Shown one piece after another: positions 31,416-56,895 of a DNA stretch of 64,000 nucleotides (its first letter is position 1; the number at the start of each line of letters is the position of its first letter). Origin of the DNA: Undaria pinnatifida (taxonomy: Eukaryota > Sar > Phaeophyceae > Laminariales > Alariaceae); assembly GCA_012845835.1 (NCBI GenBank), contig JABAKD010000028.1, positions 8,063,632 through 8,127,631 on the forward strand, given 5' to 3'. The notes below the pieces were generated by a model. The model ran no database searches. It was given only the letters and a program-made list of their open reading frames with translations, and was not told the origin of the DNA. The position numbers and the translations under genes are program-made.

Positions 31416-31865
31416 ATGTGCTCCCTACGCGGCCCTTTGACGTCCACGTCCAGGCCCTGGCGGCCAGTGTACGCATACGCCTGCTACTGCCTACTCCCCA
31501 TCTCACTAGCCCTGCGCCCGGCCTTCCGCAACACCTTCAACGGACCTCCTCCTGCGAGCGCAACTCGATCGCGAGCTAGCGATGCACGGTGGTCTACCAG
31601 CGGACGGCTGGGCTGGCATCATGGCTCGCCGTCAGCATCGGCCTTGCGGGTAGCCCCAACGAGCTCCTCGTCCGATCCTTCTGCAAGGAGGCTCCGGACC
31701 CGATCGGATTGCACTCGGCTGGCTAGTGGTTTCCTTGGTGGTGCCTCCTTACTGTCGGTGGACTGTGCCCGGTCTTTCTCAAGCAAGAGAGGAGCTAGAA
31801 GAGGGGCAGGAAGAGCTTTGGCGATGGGGAAAGGGCTAGACAGAAAGAAGGCCAAGAAATCGCAG
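31416..31865 (+). CDS. Exon 1: targeting presequence
   Basis: 150 codons ending in CAG before the donor gtgaac, phase 0. After a short basic start there is a hydrophobic stretch ([16 protein letters not shown]) and then RPAF, followed by a long Ser/Arg/Ala-rich segment poor in acids. This resembles the signal-peptide plus transit-peptide presequence of stramenopile plastid proteins, where cleavage leaves Phe at the new N-terminus. An in-frame ATG at 31320 would add 32 residues, but the one at 31416 puts the hydrophobic core nearer the N-terminus. A further ATG lies at about 31827. Its link to exon 2 rests on matching phase and position, not on a shared domain, so this is the least certain exon together with exon 3. 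Confidence 0.6.
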
Positions 31866-33807
31866 GTGAACTATGTGAACATGGATGAGAAGTTCCACGG
31901 GAACTGCAGCAGCATGTCAGCAGTGTGCTGCATCGGGTACCTATGAGCTACGAGAAAGTAGCATGGATAGGCACAGAGTACGAACACGAGTAAGCACAAC
32001 AAGGTCCAAGTTTATGAGTTTTGAACTGCAACAGCCACAGCCGCGTACCTAGGTATGTAGACTATATACAAGGCTCCGCTCCGCGGGCGGCTGACGCCGC
32101 CCGCTACGACAACCGCCCGCTACGCTAGCGCAAGGAAGAATGCAACTAAAACATGTAAAGGGGGCAGAAAGAAGAGGCTCATGGTTTGGGGCGAACAACG
32201 AATTGATAATGCCAAGAGCTGCTTGTGCAGAGCTAATTGCCCTGTGCTGTGCTGAGCTGCTGTGCTGTGCTGCTGTGCTGTGTGCTTGTAACCGGTGTCA
32301 CGTTCTGATCGGCAGTACGGGTGTAATTTGCGTGGGGGAACAAACATGGGGACCGAGATAAAACTGAAGCAAGAGCAAAAATAGTACTTTTATGTACAAA
32401 ATACAGAGATTACAACGCGTAATATTACATCTCACAGCTGGGGTGTATTTTAATTTTTATAATATACATCACGGTACGTGGTACCCGGTACTTCGCCTCA
32501 TACCTGGTACTGCTGTATGTTCAAAATATAGCACAGCGCAGCACGACACAGCACCGCAGCGCAGGGCAAGGCACGGCAACGCACGGCGCTGTGCTGAGCT
32601 GCTGAGCTATATACTTAATGAGGACACACAACTCGTAATGCGCGCGATCGGAGTATCACACACAGCTTGCAAAGATGAGTTTCGACGAAATCTTCGATCT
32701 CACAGCTGGAGTGTATTTTAATTTTTATAATATATAGCTGGGCTGAGCTGAAGCTGAGCTGAGCTGGGCGTGCATTGTGATTCAACAACGTAGTAGCTGG
32801 TGTGTACAAACCTTGTGTAGTACTACCAGTATAATACGTGGTAATGAATTTTGAAAAAATAAGTAAAATAAAATGTGGGAAGCAAAATAATAAAAGATGG
32901 AGTCCGCATAGGACATCGATATTTGTAAGGTCTATAGGGCTATCCACTATCAATAGACCACAGAGTCACTGTGACTTTGTGGCGTAGTAGTTAGACTTCC
33001 CAACTAGCGTTGGGCTGCGAAAGCAACTGAGTCAAATCGACACACGACGCGTACGATCGTATGAAAATACGCGGAAGTGTGATGAGCTACGTAAAGCTTT
33101 ATTTTTCCCCATCCGCCGGAGGATGAAAAAAAAAAAAAAAAGTTAGACTGCCCGCTTCTGGACGTGGTGTGCGTGGGTTCGAATCCGGGCATCACCAGAA
33201 GCAAATGGTATATAGGACTATGAGACCACAGTCATTGCCGTATGACTTGTGACTTTGTGGTCTAGTGGATAGAATGTCCGCTTCTGAGCCTGGTGTTCGT
33301 GGGTTCAATTCAAATCCCGGTATCATCGGGAAAAAAAAATACGATACTCTGGAGTGTTTGCAACAGTCTGTTTCTAGAAATTTACTTCCCCCAACAATCA
33401 CCGAAGGTAGGATTTGAGGTAAATTCTTGGAAACAAAAGGGCAAAAAAGTACTTTGGCGAAGGTAGGAATTTGACGAAATGTACGGTGCATTTTTGCGCT
33501 CCATATCATTGGCTTATGAAGACCGAGCATCTTCCATGCCTCGCACGCACCGCCTGCGCTGCTTGCTGTATACACAACACGACAACCGCTGCGAGCACAG
33601 AGGCTCGAGAGGTGTAGCTGGAGTATGACGCGGACGAGCGGTGCTGGATTGTGCCAGCGGGCCGCCGGCGGACTGCAGGCGTCCCGGTGCTACGGTACGC
33701 CCTCGCACGCTACGTGTCAGGATGGGTAGTTCAAGAATTGACTACTCGTACTCGTTCTCGTGACAGCATGATGACAGTTCGTTCGTGTACTTCCACCACG
33801 CCGCGGT

Positions 33808-33849
<42 letters not shown>

Positions 33850-36800: not shown

Positions 36801-39800
36801 GGGAAAAAAACGGTTCATTTAAAACTTGAACCAACAACGTTGGAGTTGCAAGTTGCGAAACGTGCTGCTTTGCGCTTCTGCGCGTTGACCTGCGCAACGC
36901 AGCGGGCGCGCGGTGTGGTATTGTGCCGGCCAATGCCCTACGTGTGGTGCAGTGCCCAGGCTCTGCTAGCCTGAGCCATGCTGTGCTGTGCCTACCATGT
37001 AGGTTTCAATACGTGAAAAAAAGCCGGGTGTCGTGCCCTACCGTATGATGCAGTTGAATGCTGGCGATGCTTAGCCGTGTGCCGTGATGTGGTGCCGTGC
37101 CGTGCTGTGCCGCATTGTGCTGTGCCTTATTATTTTTGTCACCAACAATGGTGCTGTGCTTTGTATTTCGTTTATATCAGGTGGCTGAGTTGACGGTGCT
37201 GAGTGTGATTCGCGGCAGGACGAAACATGATGTGCTGTGCTCAGCTCAGCAGCGCAGTTCACACCAGCAAGTGTTCGAGCGTTGTATTTTTGTGTTGCTG
37301 TTGCGCATCGTTTAGGCTTTAATAGGGGGAAAACAGCCGGATCATTGTAGGCTTGAACCTACAAAGTTCGGGTTTCAAGTTACCAAACGTGTTGCGTTGC
37401 GCTGCTACGCGTTGAGCTGCGCAACACAGCGGCCGTGCGGTGCCGAGATGTGTTATGTTGTGCCGACCAGTGCCCTACCTTGCGGTGCAGTACCATTTAT
37501 CCCCCCCCCGGCTCTGCTCGCCTGAGCTTTGCTATGCTGTGCCTATCATGTAGGTTTTAATACGGATAAAAACCCGGGTGCCGTACCCTACGGTGTTGTG
37601 CAGTTTGCCATGCTTTTTGCCGTGTATGTGCCACGCCCGGCCTTGGGCTGCGCTGCGCTTCTGTGCGTTCAGCTACGCAACGCAGCGGGCGCGCGGTGTG
37701 GTGTTGTGCCGGCCAGTGCCCTACGGTATGTGCAAGCCGGAACTACCGGCCCTTTCTCGTGGCGGCAACCGGCGCTAGTCCGTCCATAATTAGGCTCTTC
37801 CGGTTGTTCCCATCTGTGCCAAGCGATTTCACAGGCACTAAGCGGGCAACCGGCATTATGTCGGGCACCCGGCACTACTCAACCGACGCTATAGAGGGGC
37901 GTCTCCTGTACACACCCTCACACCCGTTGTCTCATCTCCCACGGCAGCGGCAGTCACTTGGTGTCACGTCGAGCACATACAAACGCGCCGTAGACTGCTG
38001 TTGAATCCGTTCACCTGTTCTTGCCCACTGGCTAGTTTTCGTTTTTTCATCACTGGCTATTAATTATCTATCGTTTTTCTCATCGTCATCGCTGGCTACC
38101 CGTAGGTTATCCTTTTTTTTATCGTCGCGTTTACTCTCCAGCTCAATTCGCATATAAGAGGTCTACCCTCAGTGACATTGTGGGCGAGCCGTGGTCACAG
38201 GTGTGTCTCCCCTCCATCCTATAGACGGTTGACAAAATGAATTGTGTAATTGGTTTGGTGACGGTGCTCTGTCTGGGTCCCAAAAGCGTTAAGCGGAGGT
38301 TTCCTCCCCCCTCTAGCTCGCAAACCGAAGTACCGCCAGATGTTGGTACGGCTGTGTGTAGCAAGCACTCCCGTCGTACTCGACTCCCCTGATTCCCCCA
38401 AATTGTTCCGGCCGGGCCTTTGCTTCATACCTGGCACTACCTGTAGCTGGTACAATAATTCCTCGCCGACCTATACCTTTCATGAGGACGCACACACCCC
38501 GTACACGCGCGATCGGAGTATCACATACAGCTTGCAAGTATAAGTTTCGACGAAAGCCTCGATCTCATAGCTGTAGTATATTTTTTAGTTTAATAAAATA
38601 CCCTGAACCTGGCACTCCCTGTACCTGGTATTCCTGCATTCATAGGCTCGCGCGGGAGAAGGCAAGGCCGCGGCGTCTTCGCCTGTGGCGGCGACCGCTT
38701 CCTTGAACAACGCGGGTGCGACTGGGCAGCTTATCTCGTTGCAAGATATAACGAGCAAGGATGGCTTTTTGGAGGCGTTCGAACAGTGCCGCAAGGCCAA
38801 GGCGCCGAGGAAGGTCTTCCAGGTAACTCAACACATAGCCATAGCGGCGGCGGTATACCCAGCACTATCTGTAGAAGGCAGTACGTTACAAAATGGTAAG
38901 TGTGGGTTAGCAATCTTCTCGTACTGTTTATCACGAATACTACTGTGTTCACTCACTGTTGAATGTGAAGAACACACACACCAACTGAACCTCGTATATA
39001 CGAGGTATGTATTGTACAGTCAGCAGCTTTTCGGCGTGGCAACAGGAAGGGTATCTCTAGTTTGTGGGCAATTAGTTTGAGCCTCACCCGTACGAGAGTT
39101 CTTGCTTAGTCTACGCGACCACTATATGGAGATAGCATTGCTGTTGCGCCGCTACTCTGGCTGCATGTGCTCCATGTGTGGAAAAACGCTGCCGAGGTGG
39201 ATGATTTACCCGTGCCCCTTGCCCCCCCGAACCCCTCCCTCCCCTCCCCGCACACGAAAACGGCAAACGATAACCTTTGAACCACGCAAACGATAAACGG
39301 TAAGTCATGGCCACTTTCCGTCATCCTCGATCCCACCCCGACCCATACCCCCATCCCCACGCCCACCCCTAACTCCACCTTCCGGGCCTATATCACGTGC
39401 CGCCGTTGTCGCGCGCCGTAATATTGTCACTTTACGTTTTGCGGCCGGCGAGAAGGCGTTCGAGAGCGCGAAGAAACGAAACACGGAGGGGTTGGTCGAT
39501 TTGGCGTCGGAGGCGGTAAAGGTGGAGCTAAAGCTCAGCAGAGAAGATCTCGCCAGGGGCATAATAAACTCTCTTGGGTGAGCCTCTATGCCCCTCCCTG
39601 GTAACTCTTTTCGGATCCACGTATAACGACCAAAATGACGATAATTGCAAGATTTTCAGGCGTCTATAGTAGGAGAAGCATGCAGCGATAAGACTGTATC
39701 TAAGCATCCAAGCTTCGCCTTTCATGATTCATGATGCGGTTGGCTTGAAACCCCGGGGATGTTTTAAGTTGAAAACGGAGGGAAAATATCGTTCAAAACT

Positions 39801-40881
39801 AAAGAAAAGCGAACAAGCCACACCAAGCCACCAAGCCACCGCGCGCAAATAAAACAAATAGGCCACCGCGCAAGTTCTTGAGAACTAAAGAAGAGAAAAA
39901 AGCCGCCACGCGCAAGTAACCTGGTAAGTTAACACCGACCAGCCCCAACGGTTCTCTAGCTTAGTCGATAACCATGCTGCATGCCTGTCGCGTCACTGAC
40001 AGTATTGTACGCAGAGGCTTTTCTCCGGGTGCGTTCGTAGGCGTTCGTTTGTGCACTTGTTGCCGCCCTCGTGGGCACCGGGTAGGGACAATGCGAGCCA
40101 TGTCGTTGACCGCGCACGCTGCCCTCCCCGAACCTCGACACATTCACGGAATTCGCCGGCTGGTAGAAAAAGTCTATTAGATTGACAGTCGAGGATAATT
40201 TTCGTATAATAGTTGGTCGTCATAAGGAACGCCGAATTGACCTCGAAGCTCAATTACTTGCTTTTGTCCTCGCCATTGATTGAGTGAGCACAGGCTACAA
40301 TTGATTGTTGTGTGGGATTTAATATGGCACCCGACCCTGAGCGTCGTCTCTACCGTCAAAACTATTGGTTATCGTGAGAGGATGATCCTTAATTTCTTAC
40401 GATCGATTCTATTTTAAATAACGGGCGATCGTGAGAAAGGAAGCCTCAAGTTTTAACGACCGAAATTCCTCGAGAGCGTTCCCCCCGTCTTTCCAGACGG
40501 CGAAACAGGACGGGGATAGGATAAGCAAACAGTTTCTATGTAGTATATGGAAGAAGCGTAATGAGCGCCCAAATGTTGGAGGTGTCTCTATTAGGAGTAG
40601 GAACGGTGCTCCGTCTCGAAAGGGATGCGTGGTCAATGGTCAAACGACTAAGGCAAGCAACAAATGAGTACGCCCCCCCCCCTCCTCGTTCATATTCCCG
40701 AAAACGCTTCTCCAAGGGCGGAGCAATGGGATTCTTGGCTCGCCGGCGACCTGGAGGGGGCGCAGACGGTGATCCGGTGCGCGTGCGCCGCGAGCGAGCC
40801 CGTGCTTGCTGAGGAGCTGGTCACCAAGGCGGGTTTTTCGTGCGGTGCTGCGGACGACCTCATGGGGGTGAGCTCAACGGG

Positions 40882-40945
<64 letters not shown>

Positions 40946-43900
40946 GTGTTGTTGTTGTTGTCATTGTTGTCGTGTGTTGTTGTTGTTGTTGTTGTGTGTT
41001 GTTGTTGTTGTCGTGTGTTGTTGTTGTTGTTGTTATTGTTGTTGTCGTGTGTTGTTGTTGATGTTATGCTCGCATTGACCGTATGGACTCATCGCGATAA
41101 TCTAGTACGTGGTCACAAGACAGGCTTCAATAGTCGAACAGGAAAATCAACTACCAGGTATTCATCTTGAGGGAACGTCGCACCCGTTCTCCGCCCTGCC
41201 ATTGCCTGCTCTGTACGTGCTGCACACCCCTTCGAACGACCCTTATTTAGCAGTCGTTGTTAATGGCTGATTCACTACTGGTTTATTATACGCGCGTCCT
41301 ACGTTTGACACGGTAACTTGCAAGCAGGACTATGCGGCGGCAGCCGCGTCGGTGTACCCCAACCTGATAACGGCCTACTCCCGGAAGGGCAAACGGGCTG
41401 ACACAATGCGCCTCATGGAGGAGGCGGCCAAGGCGCGGGTAAGCCAGATGAGCGCGTTTTCCGTTGCCTTGCCTTGCCTTGCCTTGCCTTGCCTTGCCTT
41501 GCCTTGCCTTGCCTTGCCTTGCCTTGCCTTGCCTTGCCTTGCCTTGCCTTGCCTTGCCTTGCCTTGCCTTGCCTTGCCTTGCCTTGCCTTGCCTTGCCTT
41601 GCCTTGCCTTGCCTTGCCTTGCCTTGCCTTGCCTTGCCTTGCCTTGCCTTGCCTTGCCTTGCCTTGCCTTGCCTTGCCTTGCCTTGCCTTGCCTTGCCTT
41701 GTCTTGCCTTGCCTTGCCTTGCCTTGCCTTGCCTTGCCTTGCCTTGCCTTGCCTTGCCTTGCCTTGCCTTGCCTCGCCTTGCCTCCCCTCGCCTCGCCTT
41801 GCCTTGCCTTGCCTTGCCTTGCCTTGCCTTGCCTCGTCATGCCATGCAATGCCAGCCACATGTGTGCAGTGTTGATGGCCGCGTTGAACCGCTTCGCCCA
41901 GGGTTGTGAGTTGACTTGGGTGTTCTTCTTTTTTATTATTACTCTTTCCTTTCTACGTATTTTCTTGGCACTTTTGACGCGCGCTATACGATCGAGGTGC
42001 TGAAACCGCTTTTTTTCTCAATACTACCCCTCAATTTGGGAGCTTAAGACCTTTCTCTCTCCCAAAAACTGGTTTTGAAGGAGAAAAAAACTGCGATATA
42101 CCGGATGAAAAATCCCATGGCCTAGGCTACACGACTAGAATTATGCAAAAAATGGCATATTCCCGACGATTTGGGTTAAGGAGCGCCGTCATTCAGAAAA
42201 AAAAAATACAAGAGAAAAAAAATGCTACCTCTATCGCAGCATGCTTTTTTTTTTTCTTTCTTTTTTTTCGCCTTTTCCCTTCCTAGACGCAACTCAGATC
42301 ATCCGGGGTCGCTAAAATAGGCTCTTTTGCCCCTCCCCACTACGGTACGCGCCTTTATTTTTATCGCGAGAATACTCCAGCCCTTTTTGCCTTCGTCGAC
42401 TCGCACTGGATGGTACTGACAGTGACTAATAGCATACTACTATTGAGACGCCGAGTAGTTTTTTTGTTGGCTGCTGTAGGTGTAACTCGTTGCTGGGGGT
42501 AATTGGCGGATATCTGTTTGTTTGTTTTTTTGTATCTGACTGGCACGTTTTGTGATTAGACAGACGCGTGTTTCTCACTGGTATGCGACCAAGTTAGACT
42601 CAATTTGATAAGGTTGTAGCTAGGCCAGTCTAGTCAAATGCAGGAGACATCCCGCAGTAGGAGCATTGGCCTTTTTTGGGTTAACTAGTGTTTCTGGCCG
42701 GTTAACCTCCTCCAGTGAGTTTTTTTTTTTCTTCTTTTTGTATGCACACTTCCTTTTCCAGCTTCTGGACAAGCCGTGGTCACATGTGCCGTCCCTTCTT
42801 CCTCCCGGTTCTTGTTGCCTTTCAATTTTTATTAGGTTTCAGCAATGCCACTGCTTGTCGATATGTCATCGAGTGTTGCTAACTCACGTTCTCGCGCTTT
42901 CCGCAAGACAATTTGTGCACAAAGAAAAGTCCCCACGAATTTATACGAGTATGCACACGGGGGGGCTCAAACTCACGAAACTGACCTATACCAGGCTCGG
43001 GGATAACCTGATACGCCACCGGGGCGAGGGTGAGAACTACCAGTTGTGCTGATACGTTTACGAGTTTGTTTGTTTTAGGATTATGATAGCGCATATCCAT
43101 ATAGAGGTGTTGGTTGGTCGGATTGCTCGAGCGAATGCCTCCGAAGTTGTGTTTCGGGTGATATCTTTGGGTCCTCGTGTTGGGACCTCAGAAAATTGTT
43201 AGAATCTTCTGCTGCACCCATAATGGTGGGATGACCCCGATTCAACTCGCAAACCCTTCCGTTTGTCCGAATGTGGCCTCTTCCCGCTTGCAGATACCGA
43301 TAAAGACCGCCGCCGCCAACCGGCTGCTTCAGGGTTTCCACAAGAGGCGAGATCTGGAGGCGGTGTTTAAGGTCAGACATGGGGGGAGAACGATAACCGC
43401 CGCCGCGATGCTGTTGTGTTTTGGATTGCAGTGTGTCGTTACCGGGTTATAGCCTCTACAACTGCGCCGTTTTTTTTTTTTTCGGGACAGACAACTTGAG
43501 TTTAGCGTGTTTTTCATTCTTTTTTTGTAGTAGTAGTGTAAGCATTAGTCTAATGCATAACTTCACGCGCGGTATCCCTACCCCCCGTCCCGTCTCTTGT
43601 TCTGTTTTATATTTTATTCGTTATAGGAATGCCCAGTAGTCGGTTATTGAGCACCTTTTGTTCGCATCTGCAAGGAGGACAACTCTCGATTCCGCCCAGC
43701 GATACAACGCCACCCCGAGTACCTGCCTGACCGCTCGACCAATTCTACGTGCCAGGTGTTGGACGTTATGGCTGCGGCAGGGGTTGACGGGGATGACGAG
43801 ACGTACGAGTGGCTGGCAAACGCGGCCGTGAGGGGGGTCGACTTTGTTACGGTGAGTGCGCCGCACTCGCTCCCGCTTCTGTTTTTCTCGTCAAGTGTGT

Positions 43901-46900: not shown

Positions 46901-49900
46901 ACAAGAAAAGAAGTTGTTGCAAGTCGCGAGTCGAACCTGGGTTACCCCAAACCCTCATTACGAGTGGTAACAATAATAATGATGAGTAATCTCAGCCCTT
47001 TTTTCGTGTCCGCTGCCGATCAGGGTGCGGTAAGCATGGCTACCCTTCCCAAAGAGCCGGTGCTACCGGAAGCCGCATTTATCGGCAGGAGCAACGTCGG
47101 CAAGAGCAGCCTGATCAACATGGTTTGCAACCGGAAGGTGCGGCGGGAAAACACACACAAAAAAAAACACAGCAAAAAACAGCAGTGCTCTACAATATAG
47201 TGCAGTACAGTCAGTAGCAAACAGCGCAAGATAACGCGAGGAAGTGCTAAGCATGTATTACACCCACAAAAAAAAAAAAGCTGCGAAAGACAGTGCTCAG
47301 CAAACATGGTGCGGGTACGGCTAGTACGAAACAGCGCGAGGTAGCGACATGAAATGCTAAGAACGTACTCGTTGACGTACTTGTTCCCTCCCGAGCTGAT
47401 GTTGGTGTTGTTTCGCCCTCCTACCCTTTTCTGCTTACGCCCGTGTTCTGTTACACGCCGCCCACCCTCTAGAACAAAAGTGTCGGCGTATATTTCACAC
47501 GCAGAAGATGTCTTCGCTAGCAAACGTCCGGCGTGCTTTTATTTGTTGTATTGTATGTAGTGTGTGTACTGGACACTTACTACCTGTCATCTCTCTAGGG
47601 TGGAGAATCAGCAGCTGGGTCCTGGGCATGCTGGATGCGGGTGAGTAGAACTACCGCTTTAATGTGATGAACAGCCACCTTCCCACACAGACGCTGGGTG
47701 CTCCGGATGTCCACAGGTTGGAAATAACGCTGTTTCGGTTCAAAACGCATGCACGCACACAAAACACGGACACCGGATGTGCTGGATGTCAATGGGTAGG
47801 GTAAACGGTTTCATGTGAGCAACGCATGCTTGCACGCCGTTGCTCGCTCGCGACTCAGCTTACCCCCCGCTGCGTGCGGCAATCCCAACCAGGCGCTGGC
47901 GTTTACCTCCAAGAGGCCCGGAAAGACCCAGCAGTTCAATTACTTCATGATGAACAACAACACGGAGAACGCGTTTTACCTCGTCGACATGCCGGGCATG
48001 GGCTACGCCAAGGCGAGGAAGGACAAGTGGGCTTGCTCGCGCGGTATTTCCCCCCCCCTTTTTTTTACGTTTAACCTCACTTTTTTTTGCGTTTTTTCGC
48101 ACACATTCGACGGTAGAGGTGTGCCGTTTTTTTTTCCCCCCCGAGACTCCTAACCTGTTGAGGAGGTGGTTATTCTGCATTCTTTACGGTTCTCCACCAC
48201 GACGGGGAAAGAGCGAACTGTCCCCGAGAAGGGCGCACGCCTCCTCACACTCCGATTCTCGAGCTTCGGACAAGAACATTATACTGTAGTTTTCACTTCC
48301 ACCAGGTACATATTTGCCCACAGGCAGTCAGATTTTGGATGCTTACTGGATTTCGTTCTTGCGCCACTCCCGTAGGCACTTCCCGGAGGGGAACCTTGTG
48401 TTCTGCATTATTGTCTTCTGAGGCTAACACTGATTTGGACATTACTGGACTGAAAATTCAAACCAGTTGAACAAGCCACCCATGGCCTGCTGTTGATATA
48501 AAAACCGATATATGTTTGCAAACTCAAGAGTGGCATTTCGTTTCGTTTGGGTTTAGGGAGACTATTTGAAACTACCAGATCAAGATGCCAACATGAAGTA
48601 ATGGAAAACCCGGGGATGTATCCCGGATGTCCCTTGACGACCGCAAGCCCCATCACTCAGAAAATGCTTTAGCCAAAAATTGCTCCGTCTATCGTAGCGC
48701 GTGTGTGTATCGGATACTTTCCTTTTTTTTTCTTCTTTGGTCGAAGTCGGTTGTTGGGCAAGGTGTAGCTCTTTTCGTAGCGCGTGTGTATCGGATACTT
48801 TTCGTTTTTTTTTTTGGTCGAAGTTGGTTGTTGAGCAACGTCTAGAGCTCCTTTCAAGGGCTAGGATCCTCAGAAGATTGCCTCAGGAGATAGAGGCGCT
48901 AGCCACCCCCGCCGCGGCACGAGTCGAATGACCAATATTGCTTGCGTGCCGTCTCACGACGGCGGCTTCCTTCCCCCCCCCCCCGGACACGTGTTACGGT
49001 AAAGATTTTCACCATTTTTTTGTTCTGGAGCTCCTCGTTTGAGGACCTCTACACCCTCCACCACAAAAAGAAAGTGATTTTGAGCTTAGTGAAACGTGCA
49101 ATCTGATGAACAAACGAAACCCGTGGCCCACGTATACGAAAAAACGGTCGTTTTTGCGAAACAACACTCTCGACCACTTGGGCTATTATAACCGTTTTAG
49201 CACTTCAGCACCGCTGTCCCGAAGTGGGGACGAAACACTTGGAGTTAGAGTATTAATGGAATAATTGTTGGAGTTCGAAATGGGTTGAGGAGCCTCGTCA
49301 TTCAGAAAAAAATGCCCAATAATGCTGCCTTGTATCGTAGCACGCGTCCCCGTTCTCCTCCCCTCTCGGGTGTTTGTGGGCTGTACGGAGAGCTGGTTGC
49401 TGCTGTGCGGTGCGCACCCACCGCGCACTTTCGCGGTACAACGCCTATTTATTGCGCTGCTGCGCGACGTATATTTTTGTTGGCCCCAGATCACAACCAA
49501 GGGTGGCAACCGTTGGCATCGCTTCCGCGCCCACCTCTCGTTGAAATCACGGGTGGAAACCGTTGACATCGATTCCGCTTCCAACCCTCGTTGACCCCCC
49601 CCCCTCGCCCGTTACCGAGGGACAACGCTATTAAGCACCATAGGCAAAACAGTCTGAAAGATTTTGAACGATAGAATGGGAACAATGTTGGAGAAGGACG
49701 AAAAAAAAAGCGAAGGGCAAAAGCAGGGTTTAGGCCGAAACCGTAGATGCGTACTGTTTCTTCCTAGATGTACAGAAGGCCTCTGACACAGTACGGAGGA
49801 ATGGGCTGTGGGAAAATATGTGGGAAATTGGGATCAGAGGAAAATGGGGAGAATGATGAAGATATGACGGGCTGCTGTGATGCTGGACGGGGAAATATCC

Positions 49901-52900
49901 AAATATGATGATATTTTACAAGGAGTTGCACAGAGATGTACACCGTCACCCAATATATTCAAGGTACATATTAATGACGTGATAGTAGCAGTCAAAGCAG
50001 CAAAGCAAGGAGTCACGATAGGGGAAGATACGGTGTCGGGGTTTATGTTTGCGGATGATTTCGTGGGAATCTCAGAAACACCCAAAGGATTGCAGGAACA
50101 GATAAGAGAACGCACTAGAGTACACTAGGAAATGGAGAATAACAGCGAACGTGAAAAAATGTGCAGTAGTAGGATATAACGAAGATAAGGTGAATCCTGT
50201 AATTTTCAAATGGAAATGGGAAGAAGATGAACTACCGATCGTAGACCAATATGCGTACCTTAGCGTAGAAATCTCAAAGGACTGCTGTTGGGATGCACAC
50301 ACATAGCGAAAGTAATAGGAAAGGGTAGATCACAGGTAGGCAAGATGGTTGCGATCCTAAGAGACCCGCACCTTGACACTAGGATTAAAATATGTATTCT
50401 GATTAATGTGATTGTACCAAAGTTAGAGTATGAAGGAGAAGTGTGGGAAGGAAACGCGTATTTTGTAAAGCAACTGGAAACAGTTCGGATGACGGCAGCT
50501 AAGAAGATACTAGGATGCTCAAGTACGACGAGTATTACAGTATTAAGAGCAGAACTAGGAATGTACCCACTTGAAACAAATGGAGACGTGAGAAAGTTGA
50601 AATGGCGATACAAAGTAAAGGATATGCCTGAAAAGAGGTTGCCAGCGATAGTTGATGATGCTGTATGGGAGAAAATAACAAGAGGGCGAGCTGGAATAAG
50701 ATGGGATAACGCAGTCGAGAAAATATGGAAGGATGTAGGGGGAGACCAAGAAGAGGAACTGTCTACAGAGACGTTTGGCGGACGGGTACAAGACAGGACT
50801 GAAATAACGAAAAGAAGAAAGGGAAAGGCAAGCGCCAACAAATATGGTGAAAGAAGAGATCACTTAGAGATATACGAAGGGTTGAGGGAAGATATTGGAA
50901 TGGAAACGTATTTGCACGGCGGAAAGGACTACGCGAAAAAGCTGACACTACGATTTCGTGTAGGGAACCTGGAGCTACCAGAAAGATGGATATATACCAG
51001 TGGTCTGGAGGAAGAGGACGTGGCTACAACTATGTGTCCGTGTGGCACAACAATAGAGAGTAGGACTCACATAGTAGTAGAATGTGAAATATGCAAGGAG
51101 GAACGGGATGCGTTAAAGGAAGAGATAAGGAAGTTAGACGTATGTGATATGGAAGAGTTTGGTCGACTAGAGAGTAGCGAGAAAACGATCGCTATCCTAG
51201 GAGATAGATGGTGGCCGCAGACGGCGAAACAGGAAGGGGAAAGGATAAGCAAACAATTTCTATGTAGTATATGGAAGGAGCGTAATGAGCGCCCAAATGT
51301 TGGAGGTGTCTCTATTAGGAGTAGGAACGGTGCTCCGTCTCGAAAGGGATGCATGGTCAATAGTCAATTGACTCAAGGCAAGCAACAAATGAGTACCCCG
51401 TCCCCCCCCCCCTCCCCCGTTGGTACAACTTTCACTTCCACCTCTCGTCGTACCCCCCCCCCCCGTCGTTGAATACGTTAAGAGACGGCAGTTTCGGGCG
51501 GTGTAAGCCACAGCTTTAGGAGCTTCCGCACTAAAACTTAGATGTCACGACTAGATGGCCGTCCGTTACAGATCAAAACGACCGTCTCGTGACACATGTT
51601 CCTATTTGACATCACCTCCCCGCTTCCACCTCCTCCAGAGCTCCCACCCGCGCTTCCAACTCTCGTCGAACCCCTTCCCACCCCTGGTAGTAGAGATGAG
51701 AAAAGAAAACAGACGAATGTGGCATGGAGAATTTTGATTGCGCTATATAGATGGTCGTAAGAAAACGATCGCTACCTTCGGAGATAGATGGTGGCCACGA
51801 AAGGCGAAACAGGAAGGGCAAAAGATAAGCAAAACAATTTTAATGTAATATATGGGGGGAGGGGGGAAGTTTTGAACGTGCTAAATGTTGGAGGTGTCTC
51901 TATTATGAGTGGAAACCGGGCTCCGTTCTCGAAAGGGATGCGTGTTGACTGGTGAAATAACTAAGGAAATCAACCAACAACCCCCCCCCCCCCTCCTTCT
52001 GGTCTACGGTCATACGACTACTGCCATGCACAAATTGAGTCCCCCCCCCCCCCCTGTATCTGCCGTCCCTAGGTGCCCGAGAAGCAGCGAAAGGAATGGG
52101 CGACGCTGTTCCGGAGCTACATCACCCGTCGGTCCTCCCTGCGCGTGCTGTTTCATCTGATCGACGGCCGTCATGGGCCTGTGGGGCAGGACCACACCAT
52201 CATGGAGCTCATGGCCGAGCTACCCGAAACGGCCAGGTCAGCCGCCAGAATGACGCGTGCAGCAATAGAGGTGGCACATTTTGGCCAAATTGTTTTCCGG
52301 ATAACGGGGCTCCTGAACCCTAAACCGTCGGAAACGGCCCATTTTTGTTTTGCAGTATCATTGTGTTTTTCTTTTTTAATATGTGACTACAGTAGGCCAT
52401 GGGTTTCTTGATGGGGTTGGACTTTTTTCAAGTGCTTACTATTAACAAGTGCTTTTTGTGTGACGTATTTGATATGGACTTCCCCAGGTGAGGAGCCTGA
52501 GAAAACTTGAAAAAAAAGTGCGCCTGTACCGCAGACCATGAAGTCACCGACCCATGTATTTCACGAGGAATACATATACTGGCAGAACACGCGCGAACGA
52601 CCTGCCATGAAACTTGTGTGAACTGAGTATCAACAACCATATCGTAGACGTAATTCACGAACACCGCCGTATTGCAAATGGAACATAGCACAAGCACGCC
52701 CAATGAGTGTGTCTGACGTATCACGCAGCTTGCAAACTTGAGTTTCGACCACGCATCGGTCGTACTCACAGGTGACGTTTTTAAATTTTTTTTTCTAAAA
52801 ACATGTCAAATATCCATGTTCGCTCGTATCCTTCCGCTCTGGACGGAAATACGGCGACCGTTAGGGATACATGCTACGACCTGTAGACTAGAGGTGTACC

Positions 52901-55900
52901 TTTTTTCTGGTTATGAGGTTCCTCACCTGAAGAGCTCCATACCTCTTCACCCAAAACCGGTTTGGAGAATGATTAAGGTACACCCAGATGAACAATCCCA
53001 TGGTCTTGAATTTGAAACACACCGAAAAGTCGTGCTGCAAAATTAGAATCACTCGTATCCCGACGATTTTGGGTCAAGACCACGGGGGATCGCACAGGAA
53101 TACTTTCGAGTAGGAAGGAGCTCGTATGGAGGCACTTCGCGTGCATGTAAAGCCACTTGGACATAGACTATGGCATCTGCGAAACAATGGTCCTTATTCC
53201 GAAAGTTTTGCGAAAAAAGCTGCTAAGATCCAATAATGCACAGAGCTTTTCTGGTGTTTTTGGCCCATTTTTTGGCCCCCATAACGTCCTGTCCCTCACG
53301 GGAATAAATTTTTTTGTTTGCCTCTAACTTTTCTCTTACGACAACAACAAAAGTTGTGCCGTCCGCCTGACGAGCAGCAAGCTTCTGGTGAAAACCGTTT
53401 GTTCGTCGGTGATGTATCCATCGTATTAGGCTCCCGCGCGTGAATTGAAGTAAATATTTTCAGCGATTTCGGGAGCTTTGGTGTTGCTGGTTCGCGAGTT
53501 CGAAATCACGAAAACTTCTCGTGAGTCACTTCTGGCTGCCTACGACTGCTGCCTGGCGCGCCCGACGTCGCCATACACCCCACCAGGAGCGCCCCTCAAT
53601 TTCACGGGCCGTGGTTGCTTGTGGGGAGCTGTAGCTGCCCGCTAGTGAAGTGCTCACGTTCAGTTGGGGATCGTTTTTTGTCTCGTTTTGTGTACCCCAA
53701 ATTTCAATCACTGCAGCACTTCAAAGTCGAGGTGTGGACCTCTGCTGAAAACCAGAGGGAAACTGATCTGAAGAGACTCACAGCACATGTGGGTGAAGCA
53801 CTCTTGGCCCTGGTGTTTGCTAACCCTAAGCCACGAACCAGCCGAAGTTCTAAACGCAGCGTGTTAACCTAGCCATGTTTTTCACTGTTCCGATAAAATA
53901 AGTGATTAGAGCCATTGGAAAACCGGGGACCAGGGGACGCTTGGGTCCCCCCGTGGCCTTAAGGAGCCCCCCCTCATTTGTAAGATATTGCCAAAAAGTG
54001 GTACAGCATTAGTACTAGGAGGAGTCCTCCAGAGAGGCGGTGGTGTGCCAGCGCAATGGGACCGCCTTATCGCGGGAAGCCGCCTTATTCATTTCAGGCC
54101 ACCCCAGCCTTGCCAAGCGGTTTTGACCGCCTTATATCGGGACACCGCCTTATTCAGACCCGCCTTAATGGGGGACCCGTGCGAGAGCAATGTGACCGCC
54201 TTATATCGGGACACCGCCTTATTCAGACCCGCCTTGATGGGGGACCCTTGCGAGAGCAATGTGACCGCCTTGTTGGGGGAAGCCGCCTTACTCGTTCCGG
54301 GTTATGAGTGCAATATTTTCGGTCGTGCCAAGCGATTTTGACCGCCTTGTATCGGGACACCGCCTTATATAGGGATACCGCTTTATTTGGACTGCCTTGT
54401 TGGGGGAGGCCGCGTTACTCGTTCCGGGTTATGAGGGCAATATCCTCGGTCGTGCCAAGCGATTTTGACCGCCTTGTATCGGGACACCGCCTTACATAGG
54501 GATGCCGCTTTATTTGGACTGCCTTGTTGGGGGAGGCCGCGTTACTCGTTCCGGGTTATGAGTGTAATGTCCTCCGTCATGCCAAGCGATTTTGACCGCC
54601 TTATATCGGGATACCGCCTTACATAGGGATACCGCTTTATTTTGACCGCCTTGTTGGGGGAAGCCACGTTACTCGTTCCGGGTTATGAGGGCAATATCCT
54701 CGGTCGTGCCAAGCAATTTTGACCTCCTTGTATAGGGATACCGCCTTATCGGGGAACCCCTGCGGTACCCCTGCCGCATCACGCGTCTATTAATAGGGTA
54801 TTGATGGTACGAGTAGCAAACGCTCGTAATATTTCCGGCCGAGTGGTACCAGGAGACCGCGATTTGACCCCTTTTGACTAATTGATCCCCTAGACAACAT
54901 TTATGCTGTATGTGATAGGAGACCGCATCGTGACCCCTTAGCTGACGGGTAGGTCACTTCTGAACGCTATACCTCGCCGGCCTGTGGCACTCGTACGCCC
55001 CCCCCCCCCCCCCCCCCCCCGCGTGCGAGATAAGATAAGCAATAATACTCATGTATCATTTGAAAGGCACATAATAATCGCCCAACTGTTGCAGGTCTCT
55101 ATTAGGAGTGGGAACGGTGCTCCGTCTCGAAATGAATGCGTGGTCCATGGTCAAATGACCAAGGCATGCCACAGCTGAGTGTGCCCCCTACCCCCCCCCC
55201 CCCCCCCCCCCCTCCCAATAGGGTATTGATGGTACGAGTAACAAACGCTCGTAATATTTACGGCCGAGTGGTACCAGGAGACCGCGATTTGACCCTTTTT
55301 GACTAATTGATCCCCTAGACAACATTTATGCTGTATGTGATAGGAGACCGCATCGTGACCCCTTAGCTGACGGGTAGGTCACTTCTGAACGCTATACCTC
55401 GCCGGCCTGTGGCACTCGTACGCCCCCCCCCCCCCCCCCCCCCCCCCCCCGCGTGCGAGATAAGATAAGCAATAATACTCATGTATTATTTGAAAGGCAC
55501 CTAATAATCGCCCAACTGTTGCAGGTCTCTATTAGGAGTGGGAACGGTGCTCCGTCTCGAAATGAATGCGTGGTCCATGGTCAAATGACCAAGGCATGCC
55601 ACAGCTGAGTGTGCCCCCTACCCCCCCCCCCCACCCGCGCTTGGTGGACGCGATGCCTGCTTGGTCAGTGAAAACTTGACCGGTATGGTAGGGATGCCAG
55701 GGTCTACGGTCATACGACTACGGCCGTGCATGACATGAGTACCCCCCCCCCCCCCCTTCTCCATTTCACAACAGCGACGGTGTGGTGTGGTGTGTGTTTT
55801 TTCTTTTCCCTTCTTCGACGTTTTGCCGAATGAAGGTACGTCGTGGTCCTGACCAAGGCGGACAAATCGGACAACTCCGTGTCCAGGGAGGTGCTAGAGA

Positions 55901-56895
55901 GCGTTATTAGTGCGTTACGGGAGGCGGGGGTCTCTCGCACTCCTGTGGTGCTGACGAGCGCCGCTTCGAAGCTAGGGAGAGACGGGATGTGGAGGTACGC
56001 GCTATTTTGTGTTATTTAGAATAAATAAAAATACACTTTCAGTTGTGCGACCGACCAATAATGATTTTTTTTTATCAAGACTCAGCTTTGCAAGCTGCGT
56101 GTGATACTTTGATTGCGCGTGTTACGGGGTGAGCATACCCTCGTGAAGGATACAGGTCTTTGTGTTTTTGTGTTATTTCTGATAAACCGTGTGTCACCCC
56201 CCCCCCCCCCCCCCCGTGTGTCCGGACGGTGTTATCAAGATGCCCCCCCGTGTGTAGCCTGATAAACTACCCCCGGGTGATAATTGTTTCGGGTGTTACT
56301 TTTTGCACCAAGGGCGATTTCCTTCAGTGGGGTAGATGATTTGTAACCAACCCCGGTGATAACGTGCATGTATCGTTTTTTTGTATACCGAAGCTATGGG
56401 TTTGCTCATCGGGTCGCACTTCCGGGTTTCCTCCAAATCTGTGTTTCTGGGTGAGGTATTTGATATAGTTTATCAAGCCACTACCACCCTCAGGAGAGAA
56501 AAAAGAGCCAGTGCACCACCTCCACCGTGTTACCATAGTATTAATAGTAGCATATGTCACAGGAGGTTTTGTCCGTACGTCCCAAATGTTTTTTTCTGTT
56601 CGTTTCTTTATCTCATTCCCTCGCCTCGCCTCTTCTTCGTCGCAGGTACCTTCGCCTGGCCGCCCTGGACAAAGTAATGCGAGAACAAGAAAACGCCAAC
56701 AAAAAGGAGGGCATGGAACTGGGGGGCGGGGAGGGGGCAGCCGGTGGTGGTGACGGTGGGGGGGAGGGTGGAGCAGACGAACGGACTAAATCTGACCGGG
56801 GTCGCGAGTGGCGAAAAGTGGGGGCCAGGAAGGAGAGCTCGGAAGAGCGACAGCCTGCTGGCGTTCCAGTTATCGTAGAGGGCGGTGGGAGATAG
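31416..56895 (+). CDS. PPR-EngB GTPase fusion gene, 12 exons (whole-gene span)
   Basis: Predicted 664-residue protein assembled from exons 31416-31865, 38646-38822, 39453-39577, 40717-40867, 41328-41438, 43294-43371, 43756-43851, 47024-47137, 47893-48012, 52073-52236, 55836-55994 and 56646-56895. Every junction keeps phase and the total is 1995 nt with one terminal stop. Residues 1-150 are a basic Ser-rich targeting region; 151-309 are mostly helical with no clear family; 310-344 and 345-379 are two 35-residue PPR units; about 393-600 is an EngB/YihA GTPase; 601-664 is an acidic Gly/Lys tail. GTPase motifs are G1 GRSNVGKS (417-424), G2 Thr446 in KRPGKTQ, G3 DMPG (466-469), G4 TKAD (535-538) and G5 SAAS (570-573). 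EngB proteins assist large ribosomal subunit assembly; PPR repeats bind RNA. Plastid location is inferred from the N-terminus. The first intron is 6.8 kb, so an extra phase-0 exon there cannot be excluded. Confidence 0.82.
32120..32365 (+). repeat. Family E dispersed repeat, copy 1
   Basis: GCGCAAGGAAGAATGCAACT, GTAAAGGGGGCAGAAAGAAG and CAGTACGGGTGTAATTTGCG, about 245 bp, direct repeat of 35575-35835. Inside intron 1 of the PPR-EngB gene. Confidence 0.82.
32612..32745 (-). repeat. Family C dispersed repeat, inverted
   Basis: Reverse complement of the family C core (ATCGGAGTATCACACACAGC, CTCACAGCTGGAGTGTATTT). A second partial copy of its end lies at 32394-32445. Confidence 0.8.
32970..33200 (+). 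mobile_element. tRNA-like unit interrupted by SINE-1
   Basis: GTGACTTTGTGGCGTAGTAG has an A-box-like word, and TGGGTTCGAATCCGGG after the insertion is a B-box. Between them SINE-1 (about 32998-33141) is inserted and flanked by the 9-bp copy AGTTAGACT. Without it the unit would be about 74 nt. The arms pair poorly, so it is a tRNA pseudogene or the head of a tRNA-derived SINE, not a working tRNA. Confidence 0.65.
32998..33141 (+). mobile_element. SINE-1 copy with target-site duplication and A tail
   Basis: TCCCAACTAGCGTTGGGCTG start, AAAGCTTTATTTTTCCCCAT, CCGCCGGAGGATG and an A-run. AGTTAGACT directly precedes it and follows the tail. This is the best-bounded copy of the family. Confidence 0.78.
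33248..33332 (+). repeat. Second tRNA-like unit
   Basis: GTGACTTTGTGGTCTAGTGG (A-box) and GTGGGTTCAATTCAAATCCC (B-box region with a 5-bp TTCAA duplication), about 110 bp after the first unit and with the same head. The anticodon stem does not pair. tRNA-derived repeat or pseudogene. Confidence 0.6.
33333..34300. other. Intron 1 sequence with a (AGC)n run
   Basis: An AGC microsatellite of about 13 units lies at 33806-33846. No exon was found. Confidence 0.45.
34305..34475 (+). repeat. Family F dispersed repeat, copy 1
   Basis: TATACCCATAAAAAAAGAAA, GCGCTGTTTCAGGCATCGGA and CTCAGGAAATCGATGTTTG; direct repeat of 36535-36705. Confidence 0.75.
35575..35835 (+). repeat. Family E dispersed repeat, copy 2
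   Basis: Direct repeat of 32120-32365, followed like it by a TACCTGGTAC-containing stretch and by GCACAGC-type low-complexity sequence, so the shared block is longer than the core. Confidence 0.82.
36021..36087. repeat. 67-nt near-perfect hairpin
   Basis: TCATTGCCTAGTACCGATAC continues to a 1-nt centre and is mirrored on the right by GTATCGGTACTAGGCAATGA; the 33-bp arms have one mismatch. Very stable fold on either strand. No neighbouring element recognised. Confidence 0.85.
36100..36295. repeat. GCACGGCA-type low-complexity tract
   Basis: GCAGCACGGC, GGCACAGC and AGGGCACGGC words repeated irregularly. Confidence 0.7.
36535..36705 (+). repeat. Family F dispersed repeat, copy 2
   Basis: Partner of 34305-34475. 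Confidence 0.75.
36796..37740. repeat. Tandem duplication of about 0.5 kb plus a third partial copy
   Basis: The block beginning AATAGGGGAAAA near 36796 and containing GCGTTGACCTGCGCAACGCA and CTACCATGTAGGTTT recurs from about 37319. A third part, with CAGCGGGCGCGCGGTGTGGT, is at about 37640-37730. Confidence 0.75.
38475..38600 (-). repeat. Family C dispersed repeat, inverted
   Basis: CGATCGGAGTATCACATACA, GCTTGCAAGTATAAGTTTCG and CTCATAGCTGTAGTATATTT, ending about 45 bp before exon 2 of the PPR-EngB gene. Confidence 0.78.
38646..38822 (+). CDS. Exon 2: helical region, start of the mature protein
   Basis: 59 codons, phase 0 at both ends, between acceptor attcatag and donor gtaact. The frame is closed by a stop just upstream of the acceptor and contains no ATG, so it must be spliced to an upstream exon. 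An Ala-rich linker leads into a segment predicted to be helical ([20 protein letters not shown]), which resembles helical repeat proteins but is too short to name with certainty. Confidence 0.7.
39453..39577 (+). CDS. Exon 3: helical region
   Basis: 125 nt starting in phase 0 and ending with two bases of a Gly codon before the donor gtgagc. The acceptor AG at 39451-39452 is the first AG after a long C-rich tract (about 39310-39375), which is why it was chosen. The frame stays open upstream to about 39303, so an earlier start is possible. The product is charged and helix-forming ([28 protein letters not shown]). Confidence 0.6.
40490..40685 (+). mobile_element. LINE 3' end fragment, family L1c
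   Basis: GACGGCGAAACAGGACGGGG through GTGTCTCTATTAGGAGTAGG, GGTGCTCCGTCTCGAAAGGG and GCAAGCAACAAATGAGTACG to a C-run. It closely matches the 3' end of 49690-51470. The C-run lies about 32 bp before the exon 4 acceptor. Confidence 0.88.
40717..40867 (+). CDS. Exon 4: helical region
   Basis: 151 nt. The first base completes the Gly codon left open by exon 3, and the exon ends in phase 0 before gtgagc. It encodes an acidic helical stretch ([18 protein letters not shown]). The acceptor lies about 32 bp after a C-run (from about 40673) that ends a LINE 3' fragment, and a (TTG)n microsatellite begins 11 bp beyond the donor, so both flanks are made of repeats. Confidence 0.72.
40879..41060. repeat. 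(TTG)n microsatellite in intron 4
   Basis: About 180 bp of TTG triplets with a few TGTG and TCG interruptions, 11 bp from the exon 4 donor. Confidence 0.95.
41328..41438 (+). CDS. Exon 5: first PPR unit
   Basis: 37 codons, phase 0 at both ends, donor gtaagc. From Val at residue 310 the product follows the PPR pattern: [20 protein letters not shown] corresponds to helix A, turn and the start of helix B. The acceptor is a tandem site (aagcag), so splicing could add or omit one Gln. The (CCTTG)n array starts about 28 bp after the donor. Confidence 0.85.
41466..41836. repeat. (CCTTG)n microsatellite in intron 5
   Basis: About 74 pentamers, nearly perfect for 290 bp and then with CTCGC variants. 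All six frames are open across it because the unit has no stop; none is a gene. Confidence 0.97.
41976..42244. mobile_element. Family A inverted-repeat element in intron 5
   Basis: GACGCGCGCTATACGATCGA at the left, TACCTCTATCGCAGCATGC at the right, interior CATGGCCTAGGCTACACGAC and GTCATTCAGAAAA. About 269 bp. Confidence 0.75.
42757..43035 (-). mobile_element. SINE-2 copy, tRNA-related
   Basis: Reverse complement of 63133-63425 over about 280 bp (CAGCTTCTGGACAAGCCGTG, TGCTTGTCGATATGTCATCG, TTTATACGAGTATGCACAC). On the element strand AAACTCACGAAA reads as the complement of a B-box-like GTTTGAGCCCCCC. In intron 5. Confidence 0.7.
43095..43247. mobile_element. Family B element, right part only
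   Basis: GTTGGTCGGATTGCTCGAGC, GAATGCCTCCGAAGT, CTCAGAAAATTGTTAGAATC, TTCTGCTGCACCC, and the end GGGATGACCC. The left terminus is absent. Confidence 0.6.
43294..43371 (+). CDS. Exon 6: end of PPR unit 1 and first half of PPR unit 2
   Basis: 26 codons, phase 0 at both ends, between cgcttgcag and gtcaga. Joined to exon 5 it completes a 35-residue unit exactly and begins the next with [17 protein letters not shown]. The exact 35-residue spacing across three exons is the best evidence that exons 5, 6 and 7 are consecutive. Confidence 0.85.
43756..43851 (+). CDS. Exon 7: end of PPR unit 2 and first strand of the GTPase
   Basis: 32 codons, phase 0 at both ends, acceptor gtgccag and strong donor gtgagt. 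The first half ([15 protein letters not shown]) closes PPR unit 2 and TYEWLANAA starts a partial third unit. The last residues, VDFVT, read into GAVSMATLP of exon 8. This matches the N-terminal strand of EngB proteins, where an F-V segment precedes the [13 protein letters not shown] block. This exon ties the PPR region to the GTPase. Confidence 0.85.
44199..44497. mobile_element. Family B inverted-repeat element in intron 7
   Basis: GAGTCATCCCTGTATAGTGC at the left, TGTGGGATCAATC at the right, with the family interior. About 300 bp. Confidence 0.72.
44498..45230. other. Intron 7 sequence, nothing recognised
   Basis: A short (AT)n run at about 44870; no exon or repeat family. Confidence 0.4.
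45235..45527. repeat. 19-bp minisatellite
   Basis: About fifteen copies of GAGTAACGCCGAGCGAAGC, almost identical. As 19 is not a multiple of 3 every frame on the minus strand cycles through the same 19-residue peptide, which explains long frames without a gene. In intron 7. Confidence 0.96.
45528..47023. other. Intron 7 sequence, nothing recognised
   Basis: Purine-rich on the plus strand at 45840-46400 with no stable family match; no exon. Confidence 0.4.
47024..47137 (+). CDS. Exon 8: GTPase P-loop
   Basis: 38 codons, phase 0 at both ends, acceptor cgatcag and donor gtgcgg. It encodes [19 protein letters not shown], the G1/Walker A block typical of EngB/YihA. In bacterial EngB the residues after G1 (NRK or similar) lead straight into the switch I region, which here starts exon 9. 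Confidence 0.93.
47893..48012 (+). CDS. Exon 9: GTPase switch I and G3; GC donor
   Basis: 40 codons, phase 0 at both ends. [14 protein letters not shown] is the EngB switch I segment carrying the G2 Thr, and [12 protein letters not shown] holds G3 (DxPG). The exon is taken to end at AAG before GCGAGG, a GC donor: this joins GYAK directly to VPEKQRKEW of exon 10, which aligns with the bacterial EngB sequence GYAEVPEEMKRKW without gap. No nearby GT gives the right phase. Confidence 0.85.
48108..48705. mobile_element. Possible composite family A remnant in intron 9
   Basis: CGACGGTAGAGGTGTGCCG at the left and CCGTCTATCGTAGCGCGTG at the right with CATCACTCAGAAAATGC near the end. Too long for one element and poorly matched inside. 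Confidence 0.4.
48985..49349. mobile_element. Family A inverted-repeat element in intron 9
   Basis: GGACACGTGTTACGGTAAAG at the left, TTGTATCGTAGCACGCGTCC at the right; interior CTCGTCATTCAGAAAAAAATG. About 365 bp. Confidence 0.75.
49690..51470 (+). mobile_element. LINE, 5'-truncated, family L1c reference copy
   Basis: Non-LTR retrotransposon. 49760-50128 encodes the reverse transcriptase palm: [30 protein letters not shown] and the catalytic box [12 protein letters not shown]. 50288-51472 encodes the thumb and C-terminal region: [33 protein letters not shown], a zinc-knuckle-like [20 protein letters not shown], and [20 protein letters not shown]. The 3' end runs through CTCTATTAGGAGTAGGAACG into C-runs. 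The frame is broken: a stop after MMKI near 49866 and frame changes near 50115 and 50285; no endonuclease is present. Plus strand inside intron 9. Confidence 0.9.
51775..51985 (+). mobile_element. LINE 3' end fragment, family L1c
   Basis: GGAGATAGATGGTGGCCACG, GGAGGTGTCTCTATTATGAG and TCTCGAAAGGGATGCGTG, ending in a C-run at about 51981. Confidence 0.85.
51995..52055 (+). repeat. Short tail-like repeat ending in poly(C)
   Basis: GGTCTACGGTCATACGACTA, CCATGCACAAATTGAGTC and then about 15 C, matching 55700-55757. It lies just upstream of exon 10. Confidence 0.72.
52073..52236 (+). CDS. Exon 10: GTPase core between G3 and G4
   Basis: 164 nt, phase 0 at the start and two bases over at the end, donor gtcagc. 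It encodes [30 protein letters not shown] and [11 protein letters not shown], matching the EngB block with Y-L-R, the hydrophobic strand, the D-RH signature and the following helix. The acceptor (ccctag) lies about 18 bp after a run of 14 to 15 C that forms the end of a LINE-related tail. Confidence 0.92.
52250..52540. mobile_element. Family A element, left end plus degraded interior
   Basis: ACGCGTGCAGCAATAGAGGT directly after exon 10, then CGGGGCTCCTGAACCCTAAA; no clear right terminus. Confidence 0.45.
52690..52790 (-). repeat. Family C dispersed repeat, partial
   Basis: GACGTATCACGCAGCTTGCA and ACTTGAGTTTCGACC, diverged. Confidence 0.6.
52868..53105. mobile_element. Diverged family A element
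   Basis: ACATGCTACGACCTGTAGAC, TAGAGGTGTACC and CGACGATTTTGGGTCAAG; the right terminus is not recognisable. Confidence 0.45.
53106..53614. other. Intron 10 sequence, nothing recognised
   Basis: No exon or repeat assigned. Confidence 0.4.
53615..53872 (+). CDS. Unassigned open frame inside intron 10
   Basis: 85 codons ending in a stop at 53872. The middle ([20 protein letters not shown]) is protein-like, but no family is recognised and no splice sites were chosen. It lies in the intron between exons 10 and 11 of the fusion gene, beside the 127-bp tandem array, so a decayed transposon gene is as likely as a host exon. Confidence 0.2.
   Translation: MLVGSCSCPLVKCSRSVGDRFLSRFVYPKFQSLQHFKVEVWTSAENQRETDLKRLTAHVGEALLALVFANPKPRTSRSSKRSVLT
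53990..54765. repeat. 127-bp tandem array
   Basis: The word ACCGCCTTGT (or ACCGCC/ACCTCC variants) occurs at 54341, 54468, 54595 and 54722, a period of exactly 127. Units contain GGGTTATGAGGGCAATATCC and GTGCCAAGCGATTTTGACCG. Earlier units (54055-54340) are more variable. Related to 23300-23650. Confidence 0.9.
54792..55631 (+). repeat. 425-bp tandem duplication with LINE-like tail and poly(C)
   Basis: AATAGGGTATTGATGGTACG starts each unit (54792 and 55217). Each unit holds two C-runs and the L1c-like 3' words GGTCTCTATTAGGAGTGGGA and GGTGCTCCGTCTCGAAATGA. The two units are nearly identical apart from C-run length. Confidence 0.92.
55700..55757 (+). repeat. Tail-like repeat ending in poly(C)
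   Basis: GGTCTACGGTCATACGACTA, GCCGTGCATGACATGAGTAC and then about 17 C; matches 51995-52055. Exon 11 starts 78 bp after the C-run. Confidence 0.75.
55836..55994 (+). CDS. Exon 11: GTPase G4 and G5
   Basis: 159 nt. The first base completes Arg529, and two bases are left before donor gtacgc. VVVLTKADK is G4 (TKAD, guanine specificity) and VVLTSAASK is G5. Between them lies the usual EngB helix ([16 protein letters not shown]). A C-run that ends a LINE-like tail lies about 78 bp upstream of the acceptor tgaag. Confidence 0.92.
56010..56155 (+). repeat. Family C dispersed repeat
   Basis: AAATACACTTTCAGTTGTGC, CAGCTTTGCAAGCTGCGTGT and CTCGTGAAGGATACAGG, starting 15 bp after the exon 11 donor. 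Confidence 0.72.
56646..56895 (+). CDS. Exon 12: end of GTPase, acidic Gly-rich tail and stop
   Basis: 250 nt. The first base completes Arg582; the acceptor is cgtcgcag after a pyrimidine-rich stretch; the stop TAG is at 56893-56895. The start ([11 protein letters not shown]) fits the last EngB helix. The final 60 or so residues are low complexity: a Gly/Glu segment followed by a charged Lys/Arg/Glu segment, absent from bacterial EngB. No polyadenylation signal was judged convincing. Confidence 0.88.

Follow-up and report, generated by a model that had tools for sequence, protein, structure and literature searches.

The genome of the brown alga Undaria pinnatifida contains a gene that appears to place pentatricopeptide repeat (PPR) units directly before a complete GTPase domain of the EngB/YihA/YsxC family, and a second gene with the same order of domains lies on another contig. 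The first gene occupies positions 31416-56895 of the forward strand of the window, by which we mean the whole stretch of 64,000 nucleotides that was analyzed (contig JABAKD010000028.1, positions 8,063,632 to 8,127,631). At the level of sequence, what has been established is a single in-phase frame, the presence of both domain families, an intact set of G1 to G5 motifs and a further gene that shares the junction. The PPR-EngB fusion looks real and old rather than an error of prediction. Our preferred reading, which we consider probable though some way from secure, is that of one nuclear gene whose product consists of an N-terminal extension, a PPR solenoid and an EngB domain and serves the assembly of an organelle large ribosomal subunit, the fusion having arisen before the gene was duplicated. 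We infer a single mRNA, import of the product into an organelle, docking on RNA and a role in assembly.

Exon model of the window gene

The spliced reconstruction of the window gene has 12 exons whose phases are all consistent, and it yields 664 codons and a stop. An earlier note on this DNA had likewise claimed 12 in-phase exons and one 664-codon frame, and rebuilding the gene gave identical numbers. Exon 1 (31416..31865) supplies the start codon and residues 1-150, a basic N-terminal extension that includes a hydrophobic stretch, and its product is a possible organelle targeting sequence. It is the weakest exon of the model: its third-position GC is 0.63 and its second-position GC 0.71, the coding signature is absent, and the intron that follows is 6,780 bases long. 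Two further in-frame ATGs (31320 and 31344) lie upstream of the start at 31416. Exon 2 (38646..38822; residues 151-209), exon 3 (39453..39577; residues 210-251; weak acceptor gcgag) and exon 4 (40717..40867; residues 251-301; weak acceptor ccaag) gave no Pfam hit at E <= 1, in a scan by which degenerate repeat units could be missed. A DnaJ match across part of exons 2 to 3, which scored 13.6 bits (E = 0.028) where the cut-off is 619, was taken as chance.

The recognizable repeats begin in exon 5 (41328..41438), which holds the start of PPR unit 1 (Y311). The end of unit 1 and the start of unit 2 (A346, with N347 at unit position 5) are encoded by exon 6 (43294..43371), and exon 7 (43756..43851) completes unit 2, with D377 at unit position 35, and goes on through half of unit 3 (Y381) to the N-terminal strand of EngB (DFVT). 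The linker GAVSMATLP and the P-loop GRSNVGKS (G1) follow in exon 8 (47024..47137), G2 (PGKT) and G3 (DMPG) in exon 9 (47893..48012), the central helix and strand of EngB in exon 10 (52073..52236), and G4 (TKAD) and G5 (SAAS) in exon 11 (55836..55994; weak acceptor tgaag). Exon 12 (56646..56895) encodes the end of the GTPase, a Gly/Glu-rich tail and the stop codon.

In each of exons 2 to 11 the third-position GC lay between 0.71 and 0.90, compared to 0.50 across all intron bases (n=23,485). In exon 12 the value was 0.60 and the coding signature was absent. A GC donor is required at the end of exon 9 (AAG/GCGAGG, the slash marking the exon end), and its use led to a gapless match to an EngB structure at that join. 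A GT donor for the same exon (AA/GTGGGC) was rejected given that, by inspection, it shifts the frame relative to exon 10. A direct join of exon 5 to exon 7 was also dropped once exon 6 was found.

The introns of the window gene range from 384 to 6,780 bases and are rich in repeats. A GTT array of 60 copies (40881-41065) begins 14 bases past the end of exon 4, and a TTGCC array of 74 copies (41464-41834) begins 26 bases past the end of exon 5. Intron 7 contains a 19-base unit in 15.2 copies with 98% matches (45235-45523), with several frames open, and intron 10 contains both a 127-base array of 3.8 copies with 91% matches (54263-54748) and a 425-base tandem duplication with 96% matches (54792-55636). 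In intron 9, frames on the forward strand at 49868-51469 read like a reverse transcriptase remnant (FADDFVGIS, presumably a motif of that enzyme) with a long downstream region, and neither of the two frames scanned there had a Pfam match at 0.01. Elsewhere in the window, a 686-residue frame on the reverse strand (4975-7032) matched the rve integrase core at 42.0 bits (cut-off 32.6) and, below threshold, Pol_BBD at 16.6 bits (cut-off 27); it is probably part of a retrotransposon polyprotein of the Copia-like kind. The tRNA search of the window found no tRNA.

The GTPase and PPR parts of the predicted protein

Residues 393-584 match the EngB/YihA/YsxC GTPase model TIGR03598 at 182.3 bits (cut-off 124.45) over positions 2-185 of 186. 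The G1 to G5 motifs are all intact in the spliced product, and the SAAS motif reported earlier for the GTPase is present among them. Solved EngB chains match the domain with a best E of 4.3e-31, and the top solved relatives are named EngB or YsxC. The EngB model begins inside the PPR-bearing exon 7, with D393 at model position 2, and the presence of DFVT in that exon agrees with the earlier claim that it holds both PPR sequence and the first GTPase strand.

The spacing of the PPR units, as marked by Y311, A346 and Y381, is exactly 35 and 35 residues, which upholds the earlier description of two exact 35-residue units before the GTPase. The third unit is cut short and runs straight into the GTPase, and only ~2.5 units are recognizable in the window gene. 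The Pfam model PPR_2 matched residues 344-387 at 32.1 bits (E = 1.2e-7) when residues 151-392 were scanned, and scored 29.3 bits, just below the Pfam cut-off of 30, on the whole 664-residue protein. Designer PPR structures matched residues 311-392 at E = 1.5e-16, and the mL102/rPPR5 chain matched weakly (E = 0.01). Degenerate PPR units possibly precede the recognizable ones.

The second PPR-EngB gene and the EngB set of the genome

The PPR-EngB segment of the window gene was searched against all 511 Mb of the genome and gave 12 matches, with 7 in the window gene itself, 3 on the reverse strand of another contig (C61:12238122-12239781), 1 on contig C32 and 1 on contig C25. The second PPR-EngB gene lies on the reverse strand at C61:12237108-12240920. 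Five exons run from the PPR part to the stop, in phase and with GT-AG sites, and in each of the five the acceptor is CAG or TAG and comes with a pyrimidine-rich tract. The gene model adds two further upstream exons, and the gene start lies beyond the modeled part. The C61 GTPase matched TIGR03598 at 164.1 bits (positions 2-184), and PPR_2 scored 21.2 bits on the 94-residue junction exon (E = 3.1e-4) and 17.7 bits on 463 residues, where the cut-off is 30. Exon C of this gene (C61:12239574-12239853) carries a PPR unit and VEFETRAVSMKSLP uninterrupted, and thus the junction that is split by intron 7 in the window gene is intact in the other gene.

The window and C61 proteins are 45% identical (114/252 residues, with 5 gap positions). 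Their alignment is gapless across the join, the first gap falling ~15 residues beyond it, and the 54-residue PPR part alone scored 97 compared to a maximum of 41 in 2,000 shuffles. The same order of domains, the gapless junction and the joining of the PPR part and the EngB strand within one exon of the C61 gene speak against two neighboring genes run together, and on these grounds the earlier claim of one gene rather than two stands. As read from the alignment, none of the 4 C61 introns coincides with any of the 6 window introns in the aligned stretch, a pattern that points to an ancient duplication or to extensive intron turnover. The two exons modeled further upstream in the C61 gene (L021 reverse strand 3581-4318) have a helix-like sequence with a Glu-rich stretch. 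They had no Pfam repeat at E <= 1, and no significant alignment was found between them and window exons 2 to 5 (16 bits, E = 2.7).

We considered whether the window could instead hold two genes, with a small PPR gene closing behind exon 7 and EngB beginning separately within intron 7, at an in-frame ATG ahead of exon 8. An open frame that contains start codons does lead into exon 8, and the version that starts in intron 7 passes the EngB model at 176.8 bits; however, the spliced junction of exons 7 and 8 scores higher, at 181.5 bits, and aligns without a gap to the C61 gene, where the PPR unit and NAAVKEVEFETRAVSMKSLP share one exon. An EngB protein begun in intron 7 would, moreover, be without an N-terminal extension. 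We regard two genes as highly improbable, and the start inside intron 7 was rejected on the difference in score and the lack of a counterpart in the C61 gene. That both forms are made, with a shorter EngB mRNA arising from an internal promoter in intron 7 alongside the fused mRNA, also strikes us as improbable: its sole support is the same open frame into exon 8, although nothing in the sequence conflicts with it. We retain the single fused gene as the preferred reading of the window.

The EngB model gave 11 matches on the genome, made up of 3 window exons, 2 on C61, one each on C32 and C25, and 4 weaker single exons. These last, which lie below the cut-off at 27.5 to 36.9 bits (C27:1648594, C33:5021741, C57:2012837 and C32:8044639), are other GTPases or more EngB genes, and the number of EngB genes given here for the genome is thus a minimum. 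When assembled, four EngB genes pass the TIGR03598 cut-off, at 182 bits (window), 164 bits (C61), ~160-161 bits (C32:18186450-18187028, one exon) and 142 bits (C25:12853807-12853956, a partial composite). The C32 and C25 genes resemble the PPR-EngB genes in passing the EngB model but differ from them in the frames scanned, given that no PPR match at E <= 1 was found in the 249-residue C32 frame or in the 83 residues of frame before the C25 GTPase. With 150 of 631 candidates scored, the genome has at least 152 PPR_2 matches, and neither PPR-EngB gene is among those listed.

The relationships of these GTPases were examined in a tree of 84 sequences, 80 of them bacterial. The bacterial sample came from at least 593 pattern matches in genome contigs, of which 590 encode a relative and the best 80 were kept; no cyanobacterium or eukaryote appears among the titles of these 80. 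Viral contigs gave 1 pattern match and no relative. Since the relatives were chosen by their likeness to the kelp sequences, the tree is no guide to whether the GTPase of PPR-EngB was acquired with the plastid. The window and C61 GTPase domains form one clade with support of 100/95, and this pair tentatively adjoins the alphaproteobacterial group, at only 87/64. The C32 sequence falls inside that group, as a mitochondrial EngB would be expected to, with moderate support (90/72 at the fork, 100/99 for the group) and a long branch. The C25 sequence, a partial composite and another long branch, groups with one myxococcal sequence at 97/74, and its placement is unsure.

Predicted function and known systems

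EngB is a widespread late assembly factor of the large subunit and needs hardly more than its GTPase domain to locate its site. In human mitochondria GTPBP8 associates with the large subunit, and its depletion causes large subunits to accumulate and monosomes to decrease, while trypanosome mt-EngB sits on a large-subunit assembly intermediate (both in PMC10654211). Both proteins have been placed in late mitochondrial large-subunit assembly (PMC10654211; PMC8998825), and for GTPBP8 and YsxC both an association with the large subunit and a need in its assembly have been reported (PMC10654211). Among Arabidopsis EngB-1 to -3, one is chloroplast, one is mitochondrial and one is in both organelles; the passages of that paper on EngB do not mention PPR, and a text search of it gave no occurrence of pentatricopeptide (PMC4263083). 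The kelp protein shares with these members of the family (YsxC, GTPBP8, mt-EngB and the Arabidopsis proteins) a complete GTPase domain with all G motifs, and it differs from them in having PPR units directly before the GTPase. In 6yxy_EQ, a solved mt-EngB chain of 655 residues, the match covers residues 74-225 and most of the extra length comes after the GTPase, unlike in the kelp protein. By analogy with the role of the EngB family in organelles, the kelp PPR-EngB protein should be an organelle large-subunit assembly factor.

Typical PPR arrays, both P-type and plant mitoribosomal, are long. The kelp protein has the 35-residue, presumably helical units of such proteins, but only ~2.5 recognizable ones precede the GTPase, seemingly few for sequence-specific RNA binding. 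Given so few units, we consider structural docking on rRNA likelier than sequence recognition by the PPR part. In the PPR RNA code, the residues at unit positions 5 and 35 are read, and N with D reads U. Both PPR-EngB genes have this N and D pair in unit 2. At the corresponding positions of unit 1, the window gene has P and K, i.e., no code residues.

These features also bear on an alternative that accepts the fusion but takes the PPR-like helices for a helical extension peculiar to EngB, in contact with proteins or with the G domain instead of RNA, so that the protein would be an ordinary EngB with a decorated N-terminus. The small number of recognizable units, the weak PPR_2 match in the C61 gene, the third half-unit that leads directly into the GTPase, and the P and K of unit 1 all favor it. 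However, the N and D of unit 2 are kept in both genes, which counts against it insofar as the code applies, and so does the match to designer PPR structures. We judge this alternative unlikely, although it carries some weight, and we continue to prefer a PPR solenoid that contacts the ribosome.

In the preferred reading, the PPR-EngB protein would enter an organelle, where the short PPR solenoid would dock on the rRNA or on a site of the ribosome close to it. The GTP-switched EngB domain would then bind a late large-subunit assembly intermediate and promote maturation of the large-subunit core. The fusion would predate the duplication, leaving at least two PPR-EngB genes in the genome. As to which organelle this may be, import into ochrophyte plastids relies on a signal peptide followed by a transit peptide with a Phe-type cleavage motif. 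The first acidic residue of the window protein is at 56, a hydrophobic segment spans residues 18-33 and is followed by RPAFRNTF, and LRPAF lies near a possible cleavage site. The N-terminus of this putative exon 1 would suit a plastid signal and transit peptide, with a mitochondrial presequence as a further possibility. The plastid location that the earlier note inferred is thus tentative, the signal being ambiguous, exon 1 the weakest exon and its start codon unsure.

A close parallel in architecture is offered by the PPR-TGM subfamily, where the PPR units are followed at the C-terminus by an RNA-related domain that came from bacteria (Manna and Barth 2013, PMC4029402); that domain is a tRNA guanine methyltransferase, whereas in the kelp protein it is a GTPase. 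A text search of the PPR-TGM paper gave no mention of stramenopile, brown alga, GTPase or Ectocarpus (PMC4029402). The earlier note had not known of a description of the PPR-EngB order, and none was found among the open-access literature matches listed, an absence that is weak evidence given that most subscription journals lie outside that literature. Among the best 60 of 61 matches to solved sequences, none is named as both PPR and EngB. We regard the PPR-EngB protein as a known type of GTPase joined to a novel partner domain, and it may sit unremarked in the protein databases of other eukaryotes.

It is conceivable, if rather doubtful, that kelps, and perhaps ochrophytes generally, have a two-member PPR-EngB family of ribosome-assembly GTPases, each with its own RNA-addressing module, in which each member serves a different organelle ribosome or a different feature of the rRNA specific to the lineage. 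A natural fusion of EngB with PPR units, if true, would show how an assembly GTPase might be retargeted to an altered organelle ribosome. It would also extend the pairing of PPR units with a catalytic partner, of which PPR-TGM is one example, to a GTPase, and the presence of two copies in one genome makes the question open to localization and RNA crosslinking.
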